DNA from: Anaerolineales bacterium
GTDB taxonomy: Bacteria; Chloroflexota; Anaerolineae; 4572-78; NAK82
Assembly (NCBI GenBank): GCA_024643945.1
Contig: JAHELX010000311.1
Span: 1 to 7,246, forward strand
Length of the DNA: 7,246 nt
Reading direction: 5' to 3'
Shown here: positions 1-7,246 of the stretch, in pieces
Layout of the letters: every line of letters begins with the position of its first letter
Position numbering within the stretch: the first letter of the stretch is position 1
Translations under genes and position numbers: made by a program
Notes under the pieces: model-generated
What the model saw: only the letters and a program-made list of their open reading frames with translations
What the model was told of the DNA's origin: nothing
Database searches by the model: none

Positions 1-180
1 ACATCAAACGTTTCGCGCATACGGGCGGTGACTTCGCCCGCCAACCGTTCGCGGACGGCTCGGCGTTGGGTATCCTGGTAGAGACGCGCGCTTTCTAAAG
101 CCACACTCAATTGCTCGGCCAATGTTTCCAGCAAGGCAATTTCGTCCTGTGTCCACGCACCGGCGTCATCAGGCTTACGC
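1..180 (-). repeat. Left copy of a diverged direct repeat (GAF paralogue 3' region)
   Basis: Positions 1-180 align without gaps to 6894-7073. A hand count gives about 134 of 180 identical bases (about 74%), best in the first 120. Both copies encode the same protein segment, from L-Y-Q-D-T-Q-R-R through G-E-V and M-R-E-T to D. The repeat reflects gene duplication rather than a mobile element: no terminal inverted repeats or transposase are present. Confidence 0.75.
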
Positions 181-1535
181 GCGCCAATCACACCTATAAC
201 CTGACCACGCGCTTTGATTGGAGTAGTCAGGCTGGTCGCGCCGTCCTCGCCCAGTATTGTCTGCCCTGTCTGTAACGCCGTCCCCATGTCCGGCCGCCAC
301 ACGTCACCAGCCGGGGAGAGAAGATGTTTACTCTTGAGGAAGCCCAAATTAGGTCGGACCTTGAGCAATTCAGCCCAGGCTTCCCGGCTTAATTCGCTAT
401 AAGCGCGACGTTCCGCCTCCAGGGCCTCGCGGGCATCAGCAAAGAGACGTGCGTTGTCGAAAGCCACCGCCACCTGATCGGCCATGATCTGCAGTGCGAC
501 CATGGTGTCCTGGTCAAAGGTACCTGGCTGGGTGCCTTGCACCGTCAGCGCGCCGAGCACCTGGCCGCGCGAGCGCAGAGGCAAGGCCGCCTCAGAACGA
601 GTATCGGGCAGCTCCGCTGTGGCCAGGCGCACGGCATCTTCCGCAGCCTCCAAGGCCACCCGCGCCTGGGCGTGGGCGACACTCCAGCCAACCATCCCCT
701 CGCCGACTTTGATCCGGTGGCCACGCGACAGCATCGCCTGACCAGGTTCGCCAGTGCCAGCGCGTAACACTGCCCACTCGCCGGCCTCGTCCATCAGAAA
801 CAGCCCCACATAGTACAGGTCAAACCGCTCGCGAATCAACTCAACTACCTGCTGGATCAAACGCTCTATGTCCAGAATCGAGGTGGCTGCCCGGCTCACC
901 TCAGCCGAAGCCTCGAGTTGAGTAGATCTCTCCTCCAGTGCGCGCGCGTGAGCTTCCAGCAAAGCGCGACCGGCTTCCAGCTCACGGTTGCTCTCGGCCA
1001 ACTCGCTTGCATTGCGGCGAGCCTCTTTGAATGAATTCTCCAGGCTCGAACTGGACAGCCAGGATATCGCCCCAAGAAGTCCAAAAATGATAGCCACTAC
1101 GGAGTAAAGTGGATAAGAGGCAAGACCGAACACGTATAGGATGACGACTTCTACAGCCGCCAGCAGGATAGACAACCAGGGAGCAGCAACGAGCGGGACC
1201 ACCACCACGGGGACTGCAACCAGCAGAACCACTGGGCTTGTAAGCTCCGTCCGCACGACGTAAGGCGTGCTAAGAGCTACCAGAGCCAAAAACGCATTAG
1301 GCGGCCAGCGATGACCGCGCCGCGTGTACCTATAGAACACACCGAATAGGACCAAACCCAGCAATTCTATAGCCAAAACAGAGAGCCTGGCATATCCAGA
1401 AACAATGTCATGAATTAGAACCAGCAAATCACCAACGCCTAATAGCAGCATAAGTACGATGAGGCGCTGCCCTCTCTGAGCAATCAGTTCGTCCTTCGTC
1501 TGAACACTGAGATATTTTTCAAGACCGCTCTTCAC
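1..1535 (-). CDS. Membrane-anchored GAF-domain protein (3' end outside window)
   Basis: Read on the minus strand, this frame is open from a GTG at 1535 to the window edge, giving 511 residues with no stop. The C-terminus lies outside the window. The start is supported by an AGGAGG Shine-Dalgarno 7 nt upstream. Residues about 24-160 are strongly hydrophobic and make five or six transmembrane helices. Residues about 165-212 are a charged, heptad-like linker, probably a coiled coil (S-E-L-A-E-S-N-R-E-L-E type). A full GAF domain follows at about 213-363, with a V-G-E-G-M-V-G-W core and an A-A-L-P-L-R-S-R-G-Q-V-L-G strand. A second, shortened GAF-like unit spans about 392-485, ending in the helix L-L-E-T-L-A-E-Q-L-S-V-A-L-E-S-A-R-L-Y. 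GAF domains bind small ligands or mediate signalling contacts. No histidine kinase, cyclase or phosphatase output domain is visible. Comparison with the paralogue at the right edge suggests only about 35 more residues, so it may be a sensor without its own output. It starts 35 nt after the diterpene cyclase and may be co-transcribed with it. A regulatory link to the cassette is inference. Confidence 0.85.
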   Translation of the reverse strand, partial: MKSGLEKYLSVQTKDELIAQRGQRLIVLMLLLGVGDLLVLIHDIVSGYARLSVLAIELLGLVLFGVFYRYTRRGHRWPPNAFLALVALSTPYVVRTELTSPVVLLVAVPVVVVPLVAAPWLSILLAAVEVVILYVFGLASYPLYSVVAIIFGLLGAISWLSSSSLENSFKEARRNASELAESNRELEAGRALLEAHARALEERSTQLEASAEVSRAATSILDIERLIQQVVELIRERFDLYYVGLFLMDEAGEWAVLRAGTGEPGQAMLSRGHRIKVGEGMVGWSVAHAQARVALEAAEDAVRLATAELPDTRSEAALPLRSRGQVLGALTVQGTQPGTFDQDTMVALQIMADQVAVAFDNARLFADAREALEAERRAYSELSREAWAELLKVRPNLGFLKSKHLLSPAGDVWRPDMGTALQTGQTILGEDGATSLTTPIKARGQVIGVIGARKPDDAGAWTQDEIALLETLAEQLSVALESARLYQDTQRRAVRERLAGEVTARMRETFD

Positions 1536-1570: not shown

Positions 1571-3043
1571 TTAAGGCTTCGTCATGGCCAGCGCACTGCA
1601 AATCGCGGACTCCACCACCCTGGCTGGGCTGTACAGGCATTTGCCAATCCATAAGGCCGGCATTTCCTCTCTGCAGGCCAGCAACCCCTGCCTGCCCCGG
1701 ACAAAAACCTCTCGGTCCACCGGCTCCATATGGCGGTCATACATGCTCAACGCCTGCAGACAGTAGGCTGTCTCCTCAGCGGTTGGCCTATCGTAATACC
1801 CCCAGCAACCATCGGAGCGCTGGGTGTCCAGGATCCAGCGCACGGCACTGTGGGCCAGGTCGTGATCAATGCTGATCAAGGCGATTACCGCGTGAGCCGT
1901 CGGATAGTAAGGAGAGGCATGCCACTTATCCATCCAGTAATGGCCGTCCACTTGTACACTGCGCAACCAGTTCACCACTTTCCTCACACGAAGTTCGTCT
2001 ACTTCTTTGAGCGCTTCCAGGACATGAATATTGGCGCTCGTACTCGGATCGCGCTCAAATGAGTAACAGATAAAGTGATCTTCCCGCTCGAACTGATAAA
2101 GAGGGCTCGGATCAGGATCAAGGCCAGCTAGTCTCATAACACTGAAGGCTACTGCCGAGTCATCAGCATTTGGAACGGAATGGTTTGAAGAGTGGCCTAC
2201 TCCTCCTCGTCTGTCCCAGAGGGCCTTCACGCTCCTTGCAAGTCGAGTAACTGCTCGATCGCGCACCATTTCGTCAGCGAGGAACAGATTCCACAACGAC
2301 CAGTTTGTCTCAAAGATGTCAAATGGAAACACCTGAGGAGCCTTGCCTCCATAGACTCTGGCCACGCTGGCGATGTAGCGGCGTGCCGCCACGTTGTCCG
2401 GCCATTTGGTGAGGAAGTAAGCGGTGGCAGAAGGGGACACGGCGACACTGCCATTACTCTCTTGAATAAATCTAACTTTCTCCACGTCAAAGTCATCCCC
2501 CATAAACTCCAGGGAAAAAGCCAGGGTGGTATCTCGCGTATAACGCATGTTCCGCGGGATCTTGGCCAGCTTCTCATTTCGCATCCTCTTGTATCGCTCA
2601 AACGCTGACAAGGGAAAAGCGAGTCCGAGTTCTTGCCCATGCTTGAGGAGAGTGGGCAGGATCACCTCAAAGCCAATCGTCTCATGTTCCTGCTCCAATT
2701 GATCGGCTTTTTCCCGGATGTATCTAAGCCCCCTCTCCATAGCACGTACATCCCGGCCATCCACGCTCCACTCGGCCAAAGCCAGAATGGCGGCCAGGGT
2801 CGAGATCACCCGGTCGTGAACGTACTCCACCTCCGCGCCCCAACTGCCATCATGATGTTGATTCTGCCTGAGCCAGTCGAGAGCCTCCGGAAAGGCGGGT
2901 ACACCAATATCGTGCTCCGCCGGGACCCGGGCCAGCCAGGCCGTATCATAGGCAGTAGGCTTCATTAGCCCGCTGCGACCAATACCAATCTCGTTAACGA
3001 TGGAACTCACCATTTGCTCAAGCCTTGGAGCGCCGTCGCCCAT
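1571..3043 (-). CDS. Class II (protonation-type) diterpene cyclase, Rv3377c/Haur_2145-like
   Basis: This 490-residue protein has the hallmarks of bacterial class II diterpene cyclases. These enzymes protonate geranylgeranyl diphosphate and fold it into a bicyclic labdane-, halimane- or clerodane-type diphosphate while keeping the diphosphate group. Near the N-terminus is P-T-A-Y-D-T-A-W-L-A (29-38), a sequence shared with copalyl diphosphate synthases. Terpene-cyclase QW-like repeats occur at Q60-G69 (D-G-S-W-G) and Q408-Y417 (D-G-C-W-G). The catalytic region H-S-V-P-N-A-D-D-S-A (288-297) sits where the D-x-D-D general-acid motif is expected, but the first Asp is Asn (N292). The middle Asp (D294), the proton donor in the family, and D295 are kept. 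There is no class I D-D-x-x-D/NSE domain, and the length fits a single-function beta-gamma enzyme. The ATG at 3043 has a perfect AAGGAGGT upstream. The gene follows the methyltransferase after 99 nt. The product cannot be read from sequence; kolavenyl, halimadienyl and copalyl diphosphate are candidates, with kolavenyl favoured by the cluster's resemblance to Herpetosiphon. Confidence 0.9.
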   Translation of the reverse strand: MGDGAPRLEQMVSSIVNEIGIGRSGLMKPTAYDTAWLARVPAEHDIGVPAFPEALDWLRQNQHHDGSWGAEVEYVHDRVISTLAAILALAEWSVDGRDVRAMERGLRYIREKADQLEQEHETIGFEVILPTLLKHGQELGLAFPLSAFERYKRMRNEKLAKIPRNMRYTRDTTLAFSLEFMGDDFDVEKVRFIQESNGSVAVSPSATAYFLTKWPDNVAARRYIASVARVYGGKAPQVFPFDIFETNWSLWNLFLADEMVRDRAVTRLARSVKALWDRRGGVGHSSNHSVPNADDSAVAFSVMRLAGLDPDPSPLYQFEREDHFICYSFERDPSTSANIHVLEALKEVDELRVRKVVNWLRSVQVDGHYWMDKWHASPYYPTAHAVIALISIDHDLAHSAVRWILDTQRSDGCWGYYDRPTAEETAYCLQALSMYDRHMEPVDREVFVRGRQGLLACREEMPALWIGKCLYSPARVVESAICSALAMTKP

Positions 3044-3047
3044 TCCG

Positions 3048-3055
3048 ACCTCCTT
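3048..3055 (-). promoter_or_regulatory. Strong Shine-Dalgarno of the diterpene cyclase
   Basis: AAGGAGGT on the minus strand, 4 nt from the ATG at 3043-3041. It is a perfect anti-16S match and fixes the start of the cyclase. Confidence 0.75.
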
Positions 3056-3059
3056 CTAC

Positions 3060-3092
3060 AAATTGTCTTGGCAATTTTATGGGTAGATCCCA
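3060..3092. other. Two small inverted repeats upstream of the cyclase gene
   Basis: The 99-nt gap between methyltransferase and cyclase is the longest intergenic stretch inside the cassette. On the plus strand it holds AAATTG-6 nt-CAATTT (3060-3077), immediately followed by TGGG-5 nt-CCCA (3080-3092). The first is a perfect 6-bp dyad just upstream of the cyclase ribosome binding site. It could be an operator half-site pair or a weak RNA hairpin. The stems are short, and no convincing -35/-10 pair or terminator U-tract accompanies them. The dyads are seen directly; any function is a guess. Confidence 0.25.
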
Positions 3093-3142
3093 GTTTACGT
3101 TCCCTGCATCCACTGCCGGACAATTCCCTCAAACGCAACGTA

Positions 3143-3952
3143 TCAAACCTTTGTGCCTTTCACGATAAAACCTGTTAGTGATGCAAGGAATAAACCTTGA
3201 GCATCAAGAAGTTTTAGTTCATTTAACCACTGAATTGCTTCTCCTTCAGAGATGAACCCGTTGGTCTCCATCTTGTTTACTGAGTTTTCTAAACCGAACA
3301 ATAAATTTGCCAGATCATAACTCGGTAAAATCATAGCTGCCGGTGCGACATGTACGTCCAATCCTGACTGCCTAAATAGCCGAGGCAATTGTCGTCCTAT
3401 CCAACCGTTTTGGTGATTTTCATCACACTGGTAATTCATGATCTGCCGGGTAAGTGCCATGTTCGGATGATCTACTAATAGTGTTTCCCAATCGGCTTCC
3501 GCAATGACAACAGAACCGCCTGGTTTCACGACGCGGATCATTTCTTTTAATGCTTTTTCTGGCGATTCCAGATGATGGAACACAGCCGCAGCTCGCGTTG
3601 CGTCAAAACAATTGTCACCGAACTGTGATAGTTCGTGTGCATCCCCCACGTGAAACTCAACCAATGCACCTGCCTTCTCAGCGCGGGCTTTTGCCTCAGC
3701 TATCAATTGCGCGCTGTAGTCAATCCCCACCACTCGACCGTTAGGGCCAACTATCTGGTACAGATTGACAGCATCATCCCCGGTACCACAACCCACATCC
3801 AAAACAGAATCACCTCTTGCTACTTCTAGCATCTCATAAGTCAGCGTTACATAGTCCTGTATAGATTCTAGCCTCTTTTCTCTATCCAGCGCGTAGACAT
3901 AGCGGTCTACCTTGCCTGACCGATCAACGTCCTCCCAACTGGACTTGTGCAT
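3143..3952 (-). CDS. SAM-dependent class I methyltransferase, candidate diterpenoid methyltransferase
   Basis: A 269-residue Rossmann-fold methyltransferase. Motif I is V-L-D-V-G-C-G-T-G (50-58). The acidic residue that binds the SAM ribose is D78 in V-V-G-I-D-Y-S. G103-D104 follows in H-V-G-D-A-H, then F-H-H-L near 125-128 and the post-motif strand R-V-V-K-P-G-G (140-146). This is the UbiE/Methyltransf_11-like layout, with a roughly 110-residue C-terminal part that probably forms the acceptor pocket. The ATG at 3952 is chosen because AGGAGG lies 7 nt upstream; an in-frame ATG at 3994 has no ribosome binding site. In the Herpetosiphon cluster a methyltransferase (Haur_2147) O-methylates kolavelool. 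The same role on the hydroxyl made by the Rv3378c-like enzyme is the natural inference here, but the acceptor cannot be proven from sequence. The gene is markedly AT-richer than its neighbours: by hand count, 3181-3240 is about 33% GC and 3241-3300 about 43%, against roughly 70% at 541-600. That suggests a separate origin. Confidence 0.88.
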   Translation of the reverse strand: MHKSSWEDVDRSGKVDRYVYALDREKRLESIQDYVTLTYEMLEVARGDSVLDVGCGTGDDAVNLYQIVGPNGRVVGIDYSAQLIAEAKARAEKAGALVEFHVGDAHELSQFGDNCFDATRAAAVFHHLESPEKALKEMIRVVKPGGSVVIAEADWETLLVDHPNMALTRQIMNYQCDENHQNGWIGRQLPRLFRQSGLDVHVAPAAMILPSYDLANLLFGLENSVNKMETNGFISEGEAIQWLNELKLLDAQGLFLASLTGFIVKGTKV

Positions 3953-3959
3953 TTTACTT

Positions 3960-3965
3960 CCTCCT
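3960..3965 (-). promoter_or_regulatory. Ribosome binding site deciding the methyltransferase start
   Basis: AGGAGG on the minus strand with 7 nt to the ATG at 3952-3950. It makes this ATG far more likely than the in-frame ATGs at 3994 and 3976, which lack a Shine-Dalgarno. The protein is therefore 269 residues rather than 283. Confidence 0.75.
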
Positions 3966-4025
3966 GAATTGCCCATTTTTCGGGGTCTAGTCATGACTAA
4001 AGCAGCACAAGCCGCCGCCTTTCTA

Positions 4026-5177
4026 TCACGGTTTTCTTCCGCGTGTCAACCGTTTGCTGACCGCCCTCGTGCGCCTCCGAATGGACGCAGAGGACGGCCC
4101 GATTCCCCAACGTGCAAAGGCGTGGATGCCCAGAAGTTCTCCAGGCACAACCGTTACCAACGGTGAAAACATCTCAGACACAGCTTCAACTGGAAAAACC
4201 AGGTCGGCTTGCTCCCTGATTTGGTCGTTACGTGAGGTTGTAACGACGATGACACGCGCCCCCATTTCCTGGCAGCCAGCCATAACTTCCAGTGCTCGTT
4301 CCAGGCTACGATCCAACGGTACAATGAACCACACTTGAGCATCCCCGTCCGGCTGGAGTAGATAAAATTGCTCGTGGGGGAACTCTTCCAGTTCAACACC
4401 ATACACCGGGCGCTGGATCTGCTCGAAGAACTTGGCCTGATAGAAGAGGGCAACCCCATAGCTGGGCCCGGCACCGAGGAAATAGAAATCGCCCTCGTCG
4501 CTCACACTCCAAAGGTATTTGTCCATCTCTGTGCTATAACTCATTGTCCGTTCAACGGCATTGGGGATGGCTTTTATCTCAGCCTTGATCTTTCCCACCC
4601 GTTTGTCATCAAGGTGACCACGGTTCTGGCCAATATGAATCGCAACCCAATACAGCGCGGCGAGGCTGAAACTGTAGTTGCCTAAGATGAGCGCCGCTTG
4701 GTCCACATAATCATTGGTGGCAAGGCCAGGGTCGGTGAACAGGCAGGGGAGTTCCTGTGACATCTGGCTCTCTCCCTGGGCTGTGACGCCGATCACATTA
4801 ACGCCAGCTTTCCTGGCAGCCCTGCCAGCTTCAAGGGTCATATTGACCTCACCACTGCTTGAAATCACGATAACCAGGGAGTCCGGGGGCAGCAACGTGT
4901 AGCGGGCCAATTGCATTGACTCCAAAGCCACAGTAGGGAGTCCGGTAAGTTGCTCGAAGGCATAGCATCCGGATAAGGCAGCAAAGTGAGAATCGCCACA
5001 GCCAGCCAGGTAGATTCTCTCAGGAATGACCTCGCCCACAACATTCCCCAACTGGCTTTGTACACTTTCAATGACTTTTGCCAACATCCCTCCCTGGCGA
5101 CTCAGCCCGGCCAGAGCCAGATTAACGAGTTGTGCTGTGGGTATTTTGAGTAGCTGATCGTATATGTCCTCCGACAT
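4026..5177 (-). CDS. Double SIS-domain sugar-phosphate isomerase/deglycase-like protein
   Basis: A 383-residue protein made of two SIS (sugar isomerase) domains, as in the isomerase half of GlmS and in FrlB/AgaS-type enzymes. The glutamine amidotransferase domain of GlmS is absent. SIS1 covers about 35-185, with the phosphosugar loops A-G-C-G-D-S-H (58-64) and V-I-S-S-S-G-E (104-110). SIS2 covers about 225-355, with F-L-G-A-G-P-S-Y-G (233-241) and a V-E-L-E-E-F-P-H-E-Q-F segment (261-271) where related enzymes carry catalytic Glu/His residues. Likely chemistry is isomerisation, amination or deamination of a 6-phosphosugar; the exact substrate is unknown. It begins 1 nt after the Nudix stop codon, with an AGGGGGA ribosome binding site inside the last Nudix codons, so translational coupling is likely. 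The last 24 residues are unusually Arg/Lys-rich and do not look like a SIS terminus. A +1 shift at a G4 run (4105-4108) would instead give a 35-residue tail ending at 3997. SIS proteins are not part of the described three-gene diterpene pathway, so its role here is open. Confidence 0.85.
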   Translation of the reverse strand: MSEDIYDQLLKIPTAQLVNLALAGLSRQGGMLAKVIESVQSQLGNVVGEVIPERIYLAGCGDSHFAALSGCYAFEQLTGLPTVALESMQLARYTLLPPDSLVIVISSSGEVNMTLEAGRAARKAGVNVIGVTAQGESQMSQELPCLFTDPGLATNDYVDQAALILGNYSFSLAALYWVAIHIGQNRGHLDDKRVGKIKAEIKAIPNAVERTMSYSTEMDKYLWSVSDEGDFYFLGAGPSYGVALFYQAKFFEQIQRPVYGVELEEFPHEQFYLLQPDGDAQVWFIVPLDRSLERALEVMAGCQEMGARVIVVTTSRNDQIREQADLVFPVEAVSEMFSPLVTVVPGELLGIHAFARWGIGPSSASIRRRTRAVSKRLTRGRKP

Positions 5178-5178
5178 T

Positions 5179-5793
5179 CTATTTCCCCCTATTGGTCAGA
5201 GCCTCGCCCACCACCTGATGGGCAATACTTCTAAACATCCCCCAGGCTGCCAGGTCGTGGAACTCGCCGCTCGACCCTAACAGCCTGCGCCAGCGGCGTG
5301 CTATCTCCAGCAGTTCTCCGGGCGCGACGGCTTTGAAATCCAGGATCTTTTCCCCGCCGGTCACCACTGGATGGTCTCCACTCTTCTCTTCGAGGAGGAA
5401 GACATAGGAGACAAAGCCTGGCACCTGCAGGTGATCATCTGGCGCCAAAACAGGCACATATCGGATCACAGCCAGGAAGCGTTGAAGCCGCGTCTCAAAA
5501 CCTGTTTCTTCCTGCAATTCACGCCACAACGCCGCCGATATCCCCTCATGGTGCCGGATGCCGCCGGTCGGCAGGCTGTAGAGTCTCTGGGGAAACCCCT
5601 CCTTGGTCATCACCCACACCAGCCCATCCATAGCCCGGCGTATGACCATCACCACCTCGCTCGTGCGCTCCGAGAAGAAGTCGCGAACCATGCTTGCGTC
5701 GAGCCCAGGGGCAACGCTGATCTGTTTTACGATAAGCCTTGGCTGGCCCCAACGCTGGGCCAGGATCTCCACCTCTTCACTGCGCCGTGTCAT
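5179..5793 (-). CDS. Nudix hydrolase
   Basis: A 204-residue protein with a perfect Nudix box at residues 77-99: G77, E83, the R91-E92-L93 and E95-E96 metal-binding cluster, then T-G-F (97-99). This matches G-x5-E-x7-R-E-U-x-E-E-x-G-U. Nudix enzymes cleave a nucleoside diphosphate or other diphosphate linked to a variable group, using Mg2+ or Mn2+. It is not a type I isopentenyl diphosphate isomerase, although that is also a Nudix fold, because the IDI active-site Cys region is absent. The box is preceded by an N-terminal extension of about 45 residues. The ATG overlaps the TGA of the Rv3378c-like gene (ATGA), and a repeated GGAGGAGGAGG Shine-Dalgarno is built into that gene's final codons. 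The two are therefore almost certainly coupled. In a terpenoid operon, candidate substrates are a prenyl or bicyclic diterpenyl diphosphate, or a nucleotide or sugar-nucleotide linked to the SIS step. This is inference; housekeeping activity is the alternative. Confidence 0.9.
   Translation of the reverse strand: MTRRSEEVEILAQRWGQPRLIVKQISVAPGLDASMVRDFFSERTSEVVMVIRRAMDGLVWVMTKEGFPQRLYSLPTGGIRHHEGISAALWRELQEETGFETRLQRFLAVIRYVPVLAPDDHLQVPGFVSYVFLLEEKSGDHPVVTGGEKILDFKAVAPGELLEIARRWRRLLGSSGEFHDLAAWGMFRSIAHQVVGEALTNRGK
5184..5190 (-). promoter_or_regulatory. Ribosome binding site of the SIS gene, inside the Nudix 3' end
   Basis: AGGGGGA on the minus strand, about 7 nt before the ATG at 5177. It lies within the last codons of the Nudix gene and is an imperfect Shine-Dalgarno. 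With the 1-nt gap between the two genes it points to reinitiation or coupled translation. Confidence 0.5.
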
Positions 5794-6746
5794 GCCTCCT
5801 CCTCCCAGACAGACGGTAGGCGGACCTGGGGTACAGGATGCCAGATATCTCCCGGTTCATACCGTCTACCAAGGCCGATAACCCCTCCCTGATTTAGACG
5901 ATAGAACGCCTGCATCTCCGAAAATGCACTAGTGGGTAATGCACCATAGTCCCGGTGCCGCCCCCTCCTAGCGTAGAGATGGTCATACAATATGTTACGG
6001 AGTTGTAGCTGTGACAAGTCCCACGAGAGACCAACCGTGAAGTACAGGTCTGCCCGGCTTTCGAGGAGAGGAGGCATCAGGGCTGCAATCCTTGGCCGAT
6101 TGAAGCTGATAAAGATATCCACCGGCTCCACAGGTTCGCCGTAATACAGTTCGACCGCTTCCTCGCGGCTCGGAGCCCGCCCGTGGTCGCGATAGTATTG
6201 CACGGCCAGCTCGAAAATCGGCGTGATCTGGTCTTGCTCGGAGTTGAAGCCCCAAAAGAGGCGATGCCGGTCATTCACCTGTGTTCGCTCCATCACCTCG
6301 TCAAAAAGTGCGAGTGTACCTTCGTATTGTGAGCCTTCCAAGGCCTGCCGGTAGTTACCGAAGAAGCGGACCCTGACCTTGTATTCTTCATAGAAACGCA
6401 AGAACTCAGGGCTCGCAGCCAGTCTCTCCATGCCGCTGGTCAGAGCCAGAGGCATATATCCTGTGCCCTTTCCCTCAAGCTGGCCGGGGACTATAGCATG
6501 GGTAAAAAGTGTGTGCACTCCGTGGTCGAAAAACGTCCGCACAATTTCTACGAATCTCTTGCCACCGTGTTTAAGGTATCGCTGCCAGTAGGACATATCT
6601 GCGGGCCAGTCGTCGAGATAATTGAGGATGAGCCACCGGACCGTCCCTCCAGCAGCAAACACGACGGTTTTCACGTGCTCGCGGGCTATCTCAGCCACCT
6701 CTGAGGTGCTCAGATTTTGGAACCAGGTGAGGTCTTCTGTCATCAT
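5790..6746 (-). CDS. Diterpene synthase of the Rv3378c/Haur_2146 family (tuberculosinol/kolavelool synthase-like)
   Basis: This 318-residue protein matches my recollection of M. tuberculosis Rv3378c along its length. Shared stretches include E-V-A-E-I near 16-20, G-T-x-R-W (34-38), F-F-D-H-G-V (72-77; F-E-H-G-I in Rv3378c), H-R-L-F-W-G-F (161-167), E-L-Y-Y-G-E (199-204), D-L-Y-F-T-V (233-238) and I-L-Y-D-H-L-Y (252-258; I-L-Y-D-H-I-Y in Rv3378c). The family has a cis-prenyltransferase fold but acts on a bicyclic diterpenyl diphosphate. It removes the diphosphate and adds water, giving tuberculosinol or kolavelool. Rv3378c can also use adenosine, giving 1-tuberculosinyladenosine. The D-D-W-P-A-D at 45-50 could serve metal or diphosphate binding. 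The motif I Asp of cis-prenyltransferases (D-G-x-x-R-W) is Gly33 here. Of the two adjacent ATGs, the first (6746) has GGAG 7 nt upstream. The gene starts 38 nt after the upstream GAF gene and overlaps the Nudix gene by 4 nt. The class II cyclase three genes downstream is the expected supplier of substrate. Confidence 0.88.
   Translation of the reverse strand: MMTEDLTWFQNLSTSEVAEIAREHVKTVVFAAGGTVRWLILNYLDDWPADMSYWQRYLKHGGKRFVEIVRTFFDHGVHTLFTHAIVPGQLEGKGTGYMPLALTSGMERLAASPEFLRFYEEYKVRVRFFGNYRQALEGSQYEGTLALFDEVMERTQVNDRHRLFWGFNSEQDQITPIFELAVQYYRDHGRAPSREEAVELYYGEPVEPVDIFISFNRPRIAALMPPLLESRADLYFTVGLSWDLSQLQLRNILYDHLYARRGRHRDYGALPTSAFSEMQAFYRLNQGGVIGLGRRYEPGDIWHPVPQVRLPSVWEEEA
5795..5805 (-). promoter_or_regulatory. 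Repeated Shine-Dalgarno of the Nudix gene, embedded in the preceding coding sequence
   Basis: GGAGGAGGAGG on the minus strand encodes the terminal W-E-E-E-A region of the diterpene synthase. It also provides several overlapping AGGAGG/GGAGG registers 1 to 7 nt from the Nudix ATG at 5793. With the ATGA stop-start overlap this is a typical translational coupling junction. Confidence 0.65.
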
Positions 6747-6784: not shown

Positions 6785-7246
6785 TCAGTTGGACTCTAGT
6801 TGCCCGTGTTCTTCTGTTACCAGGCGAATCACGATCTCATCCAACCCTAACGCCTGGTACATCTCGTCTACGGCGGTCTTGAGCACGGTCTCGACATCCA
6901 ACGTCTCGCGCATATGGGCCATGACTTCCCCCGTCATCCGCTCCCGCTCGGCGCGGCGCTGCGTGTCCTGATATAGTCTTGCGCTCTCTAGAGCTACTCC
7001 CAATTGCTCGGTCAGCGTTTCCATCAGCGCTGTCTCTTCCGCCGTCCACTCGTCGGCGCCATCAGGCTTGCAAAGCCTCACAACGCCCAAGGTGTGGTCA
7101 CGGATCTTGACCGGAATAGCCACGACTGCCTCACCGTCCTGGAAGGTGTGGCCCTCTTGGATTGCCTGCATCATCTCGGGTGGCCACTGGCTTGTGGATG
7201 GTTTTATATTGCCTTGCGCATCGCAGAGGTAGCCCAAGGTAGGCCG
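6785..7246 (-). CDS. GAF-domain protein, C-terminal part (5' end outside window)
   Basis: The last 153 residues of a larger protein, ending at a TGA (6785-6787). The frame stays open to the window edge, where R-P-T-L-G-Y aligns with R-P-N-L-G-F of the paralogue at the other end of the window. The TTG at 7237 is therefore internal, not a start. The visible part is the shortened GAF-like unit, with strands V-V-A-I-P-V-K-I and H-T-L-G-V-V-R-L, the helix E-T-L-T-E-Q-L-G-V-A-L-E-S-A-R-L-Y, and a basic/acidic helical linker. The C-terminal segment contains M-R-E-T-L-D-V-E-T-V-L and Q-A-L-G-L-D-E-I-V-I-R-L. There is no histidine kinase or other output domain after it, so the protein ends in a GAF/helical tail. 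It lies 38 nt upstream of the diterpene synthase in the same direction and is probably co-transcribed. Whether it regulates the cassette is unknown. Confidence 0.85.
   Translation of the reverse strand, partial: RPTLGYLCDAQGNIKPSTSQWPPEMMQAIQEGHTFQDGEAVVAIPVKIRDHTLGVVRLCKPDGADEWTAEETALMETLTEQLGVALESARLYQDTQRRAERERMTGEVMAHMRETLDVETVLKTAVDEMYQALGLDEIVIRLVTEEHGQLESN
6894..7073 (-). repeat. Right copy of a diverged direct repeat (GAF paralogue 3' region)
   Basis: Partner of 1-180 in the same orientation, so the five-gene diterpene cassette lies between the two copies. Similarity continues upstream at protein level to the window edge, for example R-P-T-L-G-Y here against R-P-N-L-G-F in the left paralogue. 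Confidence 0.75.

Follow-up and report, generated by a model that had tools for sequence, protein, structure and literature searches.

The question raised by this locus is what an Anaerolineales bacterium makes with a run of diterpene enzyme genes related to a Mycobacterium tuberculosis pair, and why that run continues into the gene of a membrane sensor. The window analysed here is the whole stretch of 7,246 nucleotides of contig JAHELX010000311.1, which carries on its minus strand the genes of a synthase (SYN), a Nudix hydrolase (NUD), a double-SIS protein (SIS), a methyltransferase (MT) and a class II diterpene cyclase (DTC), followed by the gene of a protein with six transmembrane helices (6TM) and GAF domains (6TM-GAF). 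Our reading, to which we give a probability of about 45%, is that the window is a diterpenoid operon whose bicyclic, perhaps O-methylated, product is sensed by the adjacent 6TM protein.

Synthase and cyclase

The 318-residue SYN, which an earlier note on this DNA had taken for an Rv3378c-family enzyme, is a member of that family, judged by homology. In a phmmer comparison it aligned with 3wqk (Rv3378c) at E 5.7e-39 over residues 9-296, its PDB sequence matches (four distinct) were all Rv3378c or mutants thereof, and the SYN family profile matched Rv3378c, the sole solved relative by sequence, at E 6.5e-88. The AlphaFold model of SYN had a mean predicted local distance difference test score (pLDDT) of 72, with a weak last third, and its top Foldseek match was again Rv3378c (4cmw; E 1.1e-21, 30% identity), with cis-prenyltransferases next. 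No Pfam or NCBIfam model matched SYN at E 0.001.

The stretch Asp34-Gly35-Thr36-Arg37-Arg38-Trp39 of Rv3378c aligns with Gly33-Gly-Thr-Val-Arg-Trp of SYN, so that Asp34 is replaced by Gly and Arg37 by Val. An invariant Asp coordinates Mg in cis-prenyltransferases (PMC6450523), and Asp34 of Rv3378c, by its place in the motif, would be this metal-binding residue. Tyr57 and Tyr97 of SYN, invariant in a 23-row alignment, align with Tyr51 and Tyr90 of Rv3378c, which two substrate complexes (3wqn and 4kt8) name in their titles as mutated. Gly also stands at the Asp place in the synthase (motif GGSRR) of locus L122, which is probably the O-methylkolavelool cluster of Herpetosiphon aurantiacus 114-95T; this enzyme is probably kolavelool synthase, which suggests that the Gly form is probably active.

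These residues bear on the proposal of a product akin to 1-tuberculosinyladenosine, a terpene nucleoside that SYN would form by transfer to adenosine while NUD and SIS would act on the nucleotide or sugar part; we consider this quite improbable. By sequence, Rv3378c is the one solved relative that SYN has, and it moves tuberculosinyl onto adenosine (PMC11476799), but the Asp34 and Arg37 of that enzyme are the residues replaced in SYN, and Gly at the first of these places is found in the L122 synthase, probably an enzyme that hydrolyses its substrate, as reported for kolavelool synthase (PMC8131916). NUD belongs to a nucleotide-type family and SIS to a phosphosugar-type one, and a 5'-nucleotidase/metallophosphatase-type gene (L122, 9062-11230) comes after the kolavelool-type cluster; against this, one metagenome-assembled genome (MAG) of the clade that includes the window has SYN and DTC under the tags JXA89_27725 and JXA89_27720, which are probably adjacent with no Nudix or SIS gene between them.

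The 490-residue DTC matched 6vpt (Rv3377c) at E 3.5e-88 and squalene-hopene cyclases at E 7e-14, by which a squalene-hopene cyclase was ruled out and the earlier assignment to the diterpene cyclases was borne out. Its N-A-D-D motif keeps the central Asp of DxDD (Asp294), which acts as the general acid (PMC9814783), but unlike Rv3377c it has Asn for the first Asp. Of 65 near DTC homologues, 39 had Asp at the first place, 21 Asn and 4 Glu, and one partial protein was misaligned there. NxDD was considered as a mark of the window clade and rejected: it is true of the window and of the clade loci L001 and L023, yet of just 21 of the 65 near homologues. Counted by hand on the alignment, Gly467 and Tyr471 of DTC sit at the places of Ala475 and Tyr479 of Rv3377c. 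Gly is reported to be common and Tyr conserved at these places in the Rv3377c family, and the clerodane maker Tpn2 carries the same pair (PMC9814783), so that the product of DTC is not settled by these residues.

Synthesis of a bicyclic diterpenoid by the cassette is well supported by enzyme homology, and for its reactions, product and sensing we infer the following course. DTC would protonate geranylgeranyl diphosphate via the central Asp294 and cyclise it to a bicyclic diphosphate of halimane or clerodane type. SYN, with a cis-prenyltransferase fold that lacks the usual metal-binding Asp, would ionise this diphosphate, and the allylic cation would be captured in SYN by water (or another acceptor) to give a diterpenol. 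MT would probably O-methylate the diterpenoid product, the Nudix protein may trim a by-product, diphosphate or nucleotide, and the SIS protein may perform some phosphosugar step. The small lipophilic product would enter the membrane and be sensed there by the six-helix domain of the gene after DTC. Other Anaerolineae have a domain of this kind fused to a histidine kinase, with a CheY-like regulator after it. It is plausible that the product of the window differs from the known ones.

Sensor domain and its linkage to the enzymes

Of the partners that the SYN family was found to have, the membrane domain of the sensor is the most constant, and this gene neighbourhood is what points to sensing of the diterpenoid by the 6TM protein. 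The AlphaFold model of the domain in the window gene (mean pLDDT 86.7) has six long helices joined by short loops, without an extracellular domain. Pfam matches to the 6TM domain were weak, with MASE6 below its cut-off. A profile (A2) of the 6TM domain was built from 35 sensor proteins beside DTC, and it matched the window 6TM-GAF protein with an hhalign probability of 98.2% (E 2.8e-14). The usual cassette elsewhere consists of SYN, DTC, a 6TM-PAS-histidine kinase and a CheY-like receiver, in this order (Pfam-checked in L031).

The locus scan, with one genome per species, gave 53 loci; DTC was missing from 8 of these, and 6 others ended too soon after it. In 34 of the 39 testable loci (DTC plus 700 bp of room), the sensor lay directly 3' of DTC on the same strand (32 by the script cut, plus L009 and L012, with overlaps of 1 and 6 bp). 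Non-adjacent sensors were found in L001 (398 bases on), L035 (640 bases on) and L003 (opposite strand, 1.8 kb off). The adjacency in the 53 loci is partly by construction, the 35-row profile having been built largely from the same loci, and genome-wide counts are a cleaner test, though many genomes share the same MAG loci. Among 396 genomes, taken from a larger group, of the class of the nearest relative, the sensor domain (cut-off 1e-10) was present in 55, SYN (E 1e-10) in 49 (about one in eight) and both in 37, within 10 kb of each other in 33 of the 37; for the co-occurrence, Fisher P was 4e-28 without kinship correction. The sensor copy numbers (one to three matches per genome) are lower bounds, because at most 8 candidates were scored per genome. 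In G001, the genome of the nearest readable relative, 8 of 31 candidates were scored, and the gene after DTC was the single sensor match at 1e-10 (E 3e-14). A phylum sample of 375 genomes, counted by hand, contained 23 with SYN and 19 with the sensor domain; 14 had both, and in 13 of these the two shared a contig. Because the class sample also includes 12 of these 13 genomes, the phylum sample does not repeat it independently. The presence of such enzymes beside a membrane sensor in many relatives hints at a signalling role for the terpenoid. In L105 and L106, two loci that are more distant, a 6TM kinase stands on the strand opposite to DTC-SYN and faces them, so that the linkage persists there without an operon.

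Ten genomes of the phylum sample had distant SYN matches alone, and the loci of seven were read. A large histidine-kinase-matching protein beside DTC, together with MT matches, was found in five of the seven (L121-L124 and L127). L122 and L127 were checked against Pfam, which confirmed that both have kinase and receiver domains; in L122 a hybrid histidine kinase and a receiver protein are directly upstream of the cyclase. In the stretches examined, L125 had no DTC and L126 no sensor. For these Herpetosiphon-type kinases, position is firmer evidence than domain relation. Three natural histidine kinase-DTC fusions (P0203, P0217 and P0229, with 844, 812 and 810 residues), in which HisKA and HATPase are joined to DTC, were found among the 120 DTC relatives listed. 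P0203 retains the H-box His, for which P0217 and P0229 have Gln, so the fused kinase may be partly degenerate.

Several results weigh against a sensor that reads the product. A Foldseek search with the model of the 6TM domain returned no solved structure at E 0.001. No kinase was found in the available part of the window sensor, where GAF domains are present, or in its L001 relative. A2 matched the Herpetosiphon-type kinases weakly (E 1e-6 to 1e-8, in a small set), and other membrane proteins scored close by (best 4.7e-6, in a larger set). No sensor was found at the loci L026 and L047 (Legionella erythra). In the class sample, the sensor domain occurred without a SYN match in 18 of 55 genomes; 13 of the 18 were inspected, with DTC in 2 (one with a weak SYN) and neither DTC nor SYN in the stretch inspected in the other 11. 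Conversely, 12 of the 49 SYN genomes lacked the sensor domain at 1e-10, and SYN and the sensor were unlinked in 4 of the 37 genomes having both. The co-evolution test over 29 loci was mixed to negative, since the membrane domain tracked SYN and DTC no more closely than the kinase core did (bootstrap difference of correlations, membrane domain versus kinase core, -0.27 to 0.12 for SYN and -0.40 to -0.10 for DTC). When the kinase core was controlled for, some correlation of the membrane domain with SYN was left (0.26, permutation p 0.013) and none with DTC (0.04, p 0.32); tight co-evolution of the membrane domain with the enzymes was thus not clearly supported.

The same synteny fits an ordinary diterpenoid cluster with a two-component regulator, in which the sensor would read another cue (redox, membrane state or starvation) and switch synthesis on, the product being an unsensed effector such as an antibiotic or a predation aid. 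We hold this to be a serious possibility, if short of even odds. Tailoring and export genes near some cassettes would suit it (relatives of the L042 ICMT-type methyltransferase in 19 of 53 loci; neighbours of the FtsX-type permease, GT87 and P450 kinds, each in a single locus that was checked), as would a membrane domain without clear extra co-evolution with the enzymes. In the cases checked, however, the receiver after the kinase is a lone CheY-like domain with no DNA-binding domain, which is unlike a usual local transcription regulator, and the histidine kinase-DTC fusions couple the proteins more tightly than transcription control requires. That the product is instead a structural or protective membrane terpenoid, and that the 6TM sensor monitors membrane order like the membrane-state kinases over lipid synthesis, appears unlikely. 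The six short-looped helices of the model, with no extracellular domain, and the ICMT/PEMT-type methyltransferases near some loci are consistent with such a role, but the patchy occurrence (49 of 396 genomes) suggests an accessory compound and the adjoining enzyme genes vary from locus to locus.

No paper connecting these enzymes with a sensor kinase was found in a literature search whose coverage excluded most subscription journals. In the main text of the Tpn2 paper (PMC9814783), the words 'sensor', 'regulator' and 'two-component' were not found, and 'kinase' was used for the precursor system only.

Gene run of the window

The five cassette open reading frames (ORFs) were confirmed on the minus strand, and with those on either side they form a run of seven in the order GAFup, SYN, Nudix, SIS, MT, DTC and 6TM-GAF (Table 1). 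Both outer genes are cut, so the run has at least seven genes and continues past both edges of the window. Nudix overlaps the end of SYN by 4 bp and is separated from SIS by 1 bp; GAFup, on the same strand, precedes SYN by 38 bp. A purine-rich site lies upstream of the starts of SYN, Nudix, SIS, MT (3952), DTC and 6TM-GAF. The 6TM-GAF ORF was listed from 1652, and its start is most likely the GTG at 1535, 35 bp from the DTC stop, which makes it the next gene of the cassette run. The five genes of the cassette that the earlier note had drawn at 1571..6746 therefore stand, while its end at 1571 does not. The placing of Nudix, SIS and SAM (S-adenosylmethionine) methyltransferase genes between synthase and cyclase agrees with the ORFs and their Pfam matches; DTC, too, has a match in Pfam. 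For MT, the most likely start is the ATG at 3952, which has an AGGAGG-like site that 3994 lacks; MT fell below every NCBIfam cut-off among the 25 models listed.

Table 1. Features of the window, listed from the upstream end of the minus-strand run
Feature	Position	Strand	Evidence
GAFup, C-terminal part of a GAF-domain gene, runs off window	6785..7246	-	GAF PF01590 E 7e-09
SYN, Rv3378c-family cis-prenyltransferase-fold diterpene synthase/transferase (predicted), 318 aa	5790..6746	-	start behind GGAGAAGGA
SYN Gly33, at place of Rv3378c Asp34	6648..6650	-	alignment to Rv3378c
NUD, Nudix hydrolase, 204 aa	5179..5793	-	PF00293 E 3.9e-12
Nudix box, complete, NUD residues 77-99	5497..5565	-	motif spotted by eye in translation
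SIS, double-SIS protein, 383 aa	4026..5177	-	PF01380 E 1.8e-21, two stretches; PDB 3tbf E 9e-14
MT, class I SAM-dependent methyltransferase	3143..3952 (ORF open from 3994)	-	PF13847 E 1.6e-29
DTC, class II diterpene cyclase, 490 aa	1571..3043	-	6vpt (Rv3377c) E 3.5e-88
DTC catalytic motif N-A-D-D, residues 292-295	2159..2170	-	sequence comparison
6TM-GAF sensor gene, runs off window	3..1535	-	GAF E 9.2e-25; start behind GAGGAGG
Six-helix membrane domain of 6TM-GAF	933..1535	-	hhalign probability 98.2, E 2.8e-14

The Nudix box (GX5EX7REUXEEXGU) is complete in NUD. By its Pfam and PDB matches, SIS resembles the isomerase half of GlmS. SIS proved of no use as a marker, since at 1e-12 its wider family occurs in 306 of 396 genomes. 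Copies that do not belong to the cassette are at best about 40% identical, and the neighbours of these nearest ones, judged by eye, are ABC-transporter-like and sugar-kinase-like genes. GAFup and part of the downstream GAF protein are 53% identical over 119 columns, and the GAF genes on either side of the cassette are, by this likeness, paralogues. Positions 1-176 and 6894-7069 of the window, within these flanking genes, share 76% identity over 176 bases in the same orientation, and the cassette looks as if it had been placed between duplicated sensor genes.

Window clade and spread of the family

Of the 136 SYN family proteins examined, all 44 that are more than 55% identical to window SYN have the motif FA[AM]GGTxRW, and the other 92 have Asn (90), Lys (1) or a gap (1) at the Asp34 place. 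In a tree of 84 family proteins including that of the window, but neither Herpetosiphon-type nor mycobacterial proteins, the window clade splits at 100/100 from 39 others, and it looks like a distinct, separate group of the family. Nudix and SIS are present in the two other readable clade loci, L001 and L023, and MT was found in neither. This recurrence shows that the enlargement seen by the earlier note, which had called the window a rearranged and enlarged Herpetosiphon-type cluster, is real; the clade split speaks against a rearranged Herpetosiphon cluster. L001 has GAF genes on both sides of the cassette, and L025, which carries the other end of the L023 synthase, has them upstream; downstream of L023 the contig ends. 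In L120 (4897-19134), which overlaps and extends L025, six GAF-type genes in a row (five Pfam-checked) lead into the synthase of a clade relative; two genes of this run have periplasmic-binding-protein-like domains and one a MASE11 domain.

The family as a whole numbered 1136 proteins at E 0.001 among 7992 scored candidates; this count, and the 49 of 396 class genomes, do not agree with the claim that such pathways are rare in bacteria. Two of those 49 genomes (G001 and G002) belong to the window clade, and the order and family of the nearest genome comprise just two genomes. By their record titles, the 53 loci are nearly all from Chloroflexota, chiefly Anaerolineae, with one from Legionella erythra, where an Rv3378c-family gene adjoins a class II cyclase relative in two overlapping pieces (L047, 9998-12569). 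The plasmid collection gave no match, and no relative was found in viral contigs. In L016 (8453-10048), a radical-SAM gene with a B12-binding match just below cut-off lies between SYN and DTC, and its product perhaps performs a further modification step.

Comparison with known systems

The M. tuberculosis pair Rv3377c/Rv3378c, which makes tuberculosinol and 1-tuberculosinyladenosine, belongs to the same two enzyme families and supplies the best-scoring solved structures for DTC and SYN, as the relation proposed in the earlier note would have it; the window differs from that locus in its additional Nudix, SIS, MT and 6TM-GAF genes. An Rv3378c equivalent is reported in 44% of the clusters with Rv3377c homologues, in a family called terrabacterial (PMC9814783). 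The relation to the Herpetosiphon-type cluster (Haur_2145-2147), also proposed, is seen in the grouping of cyclase, synthase and methyltransferase and in the synthase Gly at the metal-Asp place of L122. The enzymes of the window and of L122 share 27-29% identity (cyclase 28% over 519 columns, SYN 27%). The order there is DTC-SYN-MT, whereas that of the window differs and has two genes added, and the three-gene O-methylkolavelool order with orthologues was not found in the window. No Nudix or SIS was seen in L122, which has a kinase where the window has GAF domains.

The 6TM sensor with short loops beside synthesis genes, as known here from the genes and the model, also recalls the CqsA/CqsS and LqsA/LqsS systems, in which a dedicated synthase gene is close by. 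Sensors of the CqsS/LqsS type are described as having 6TM, short loops, a histidine kinase output and a lipophilic ligand (PMC4821796). The window differs from these systems in its diterpenoid instead of alpha-hydroxyketone synthase chemistry and in the lack of a histidine kinase in the available part of its sensor gene; one is present in the canonical relatives (L031).

Significance

The enzyme route to O-methylkolavelool in H. aurantiacus is known, and we know of no role for the compound. The M. tuberculosis pair is tied to virulence, and the initial search of a 2024 study for orthologues outside mycobacteria was reported to have failed (PMC11476799). Here, about one in eight of the class genomes sampled had a member of the SYN family, with the sensor domain as its most constant neighbour found. 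We suggest, tentatively, that the bicyclic diterpenoids of Chloroflexota may be cell-cell or membrane-borne signals read by the adjacent 6TM sensor, and that the M. tuberculosis pair may come from a family whose earlier role was in signalling. With the window clade come a synthase whose metal site is altered and two partner enzymes of an unusual kind, Nudix and SIS. If the diterpenoid is indeed the ligand, bacteria would here have a terpenoid signal with its receptor, and this could be approached in cultured Herpetosiphon aurantiacus.

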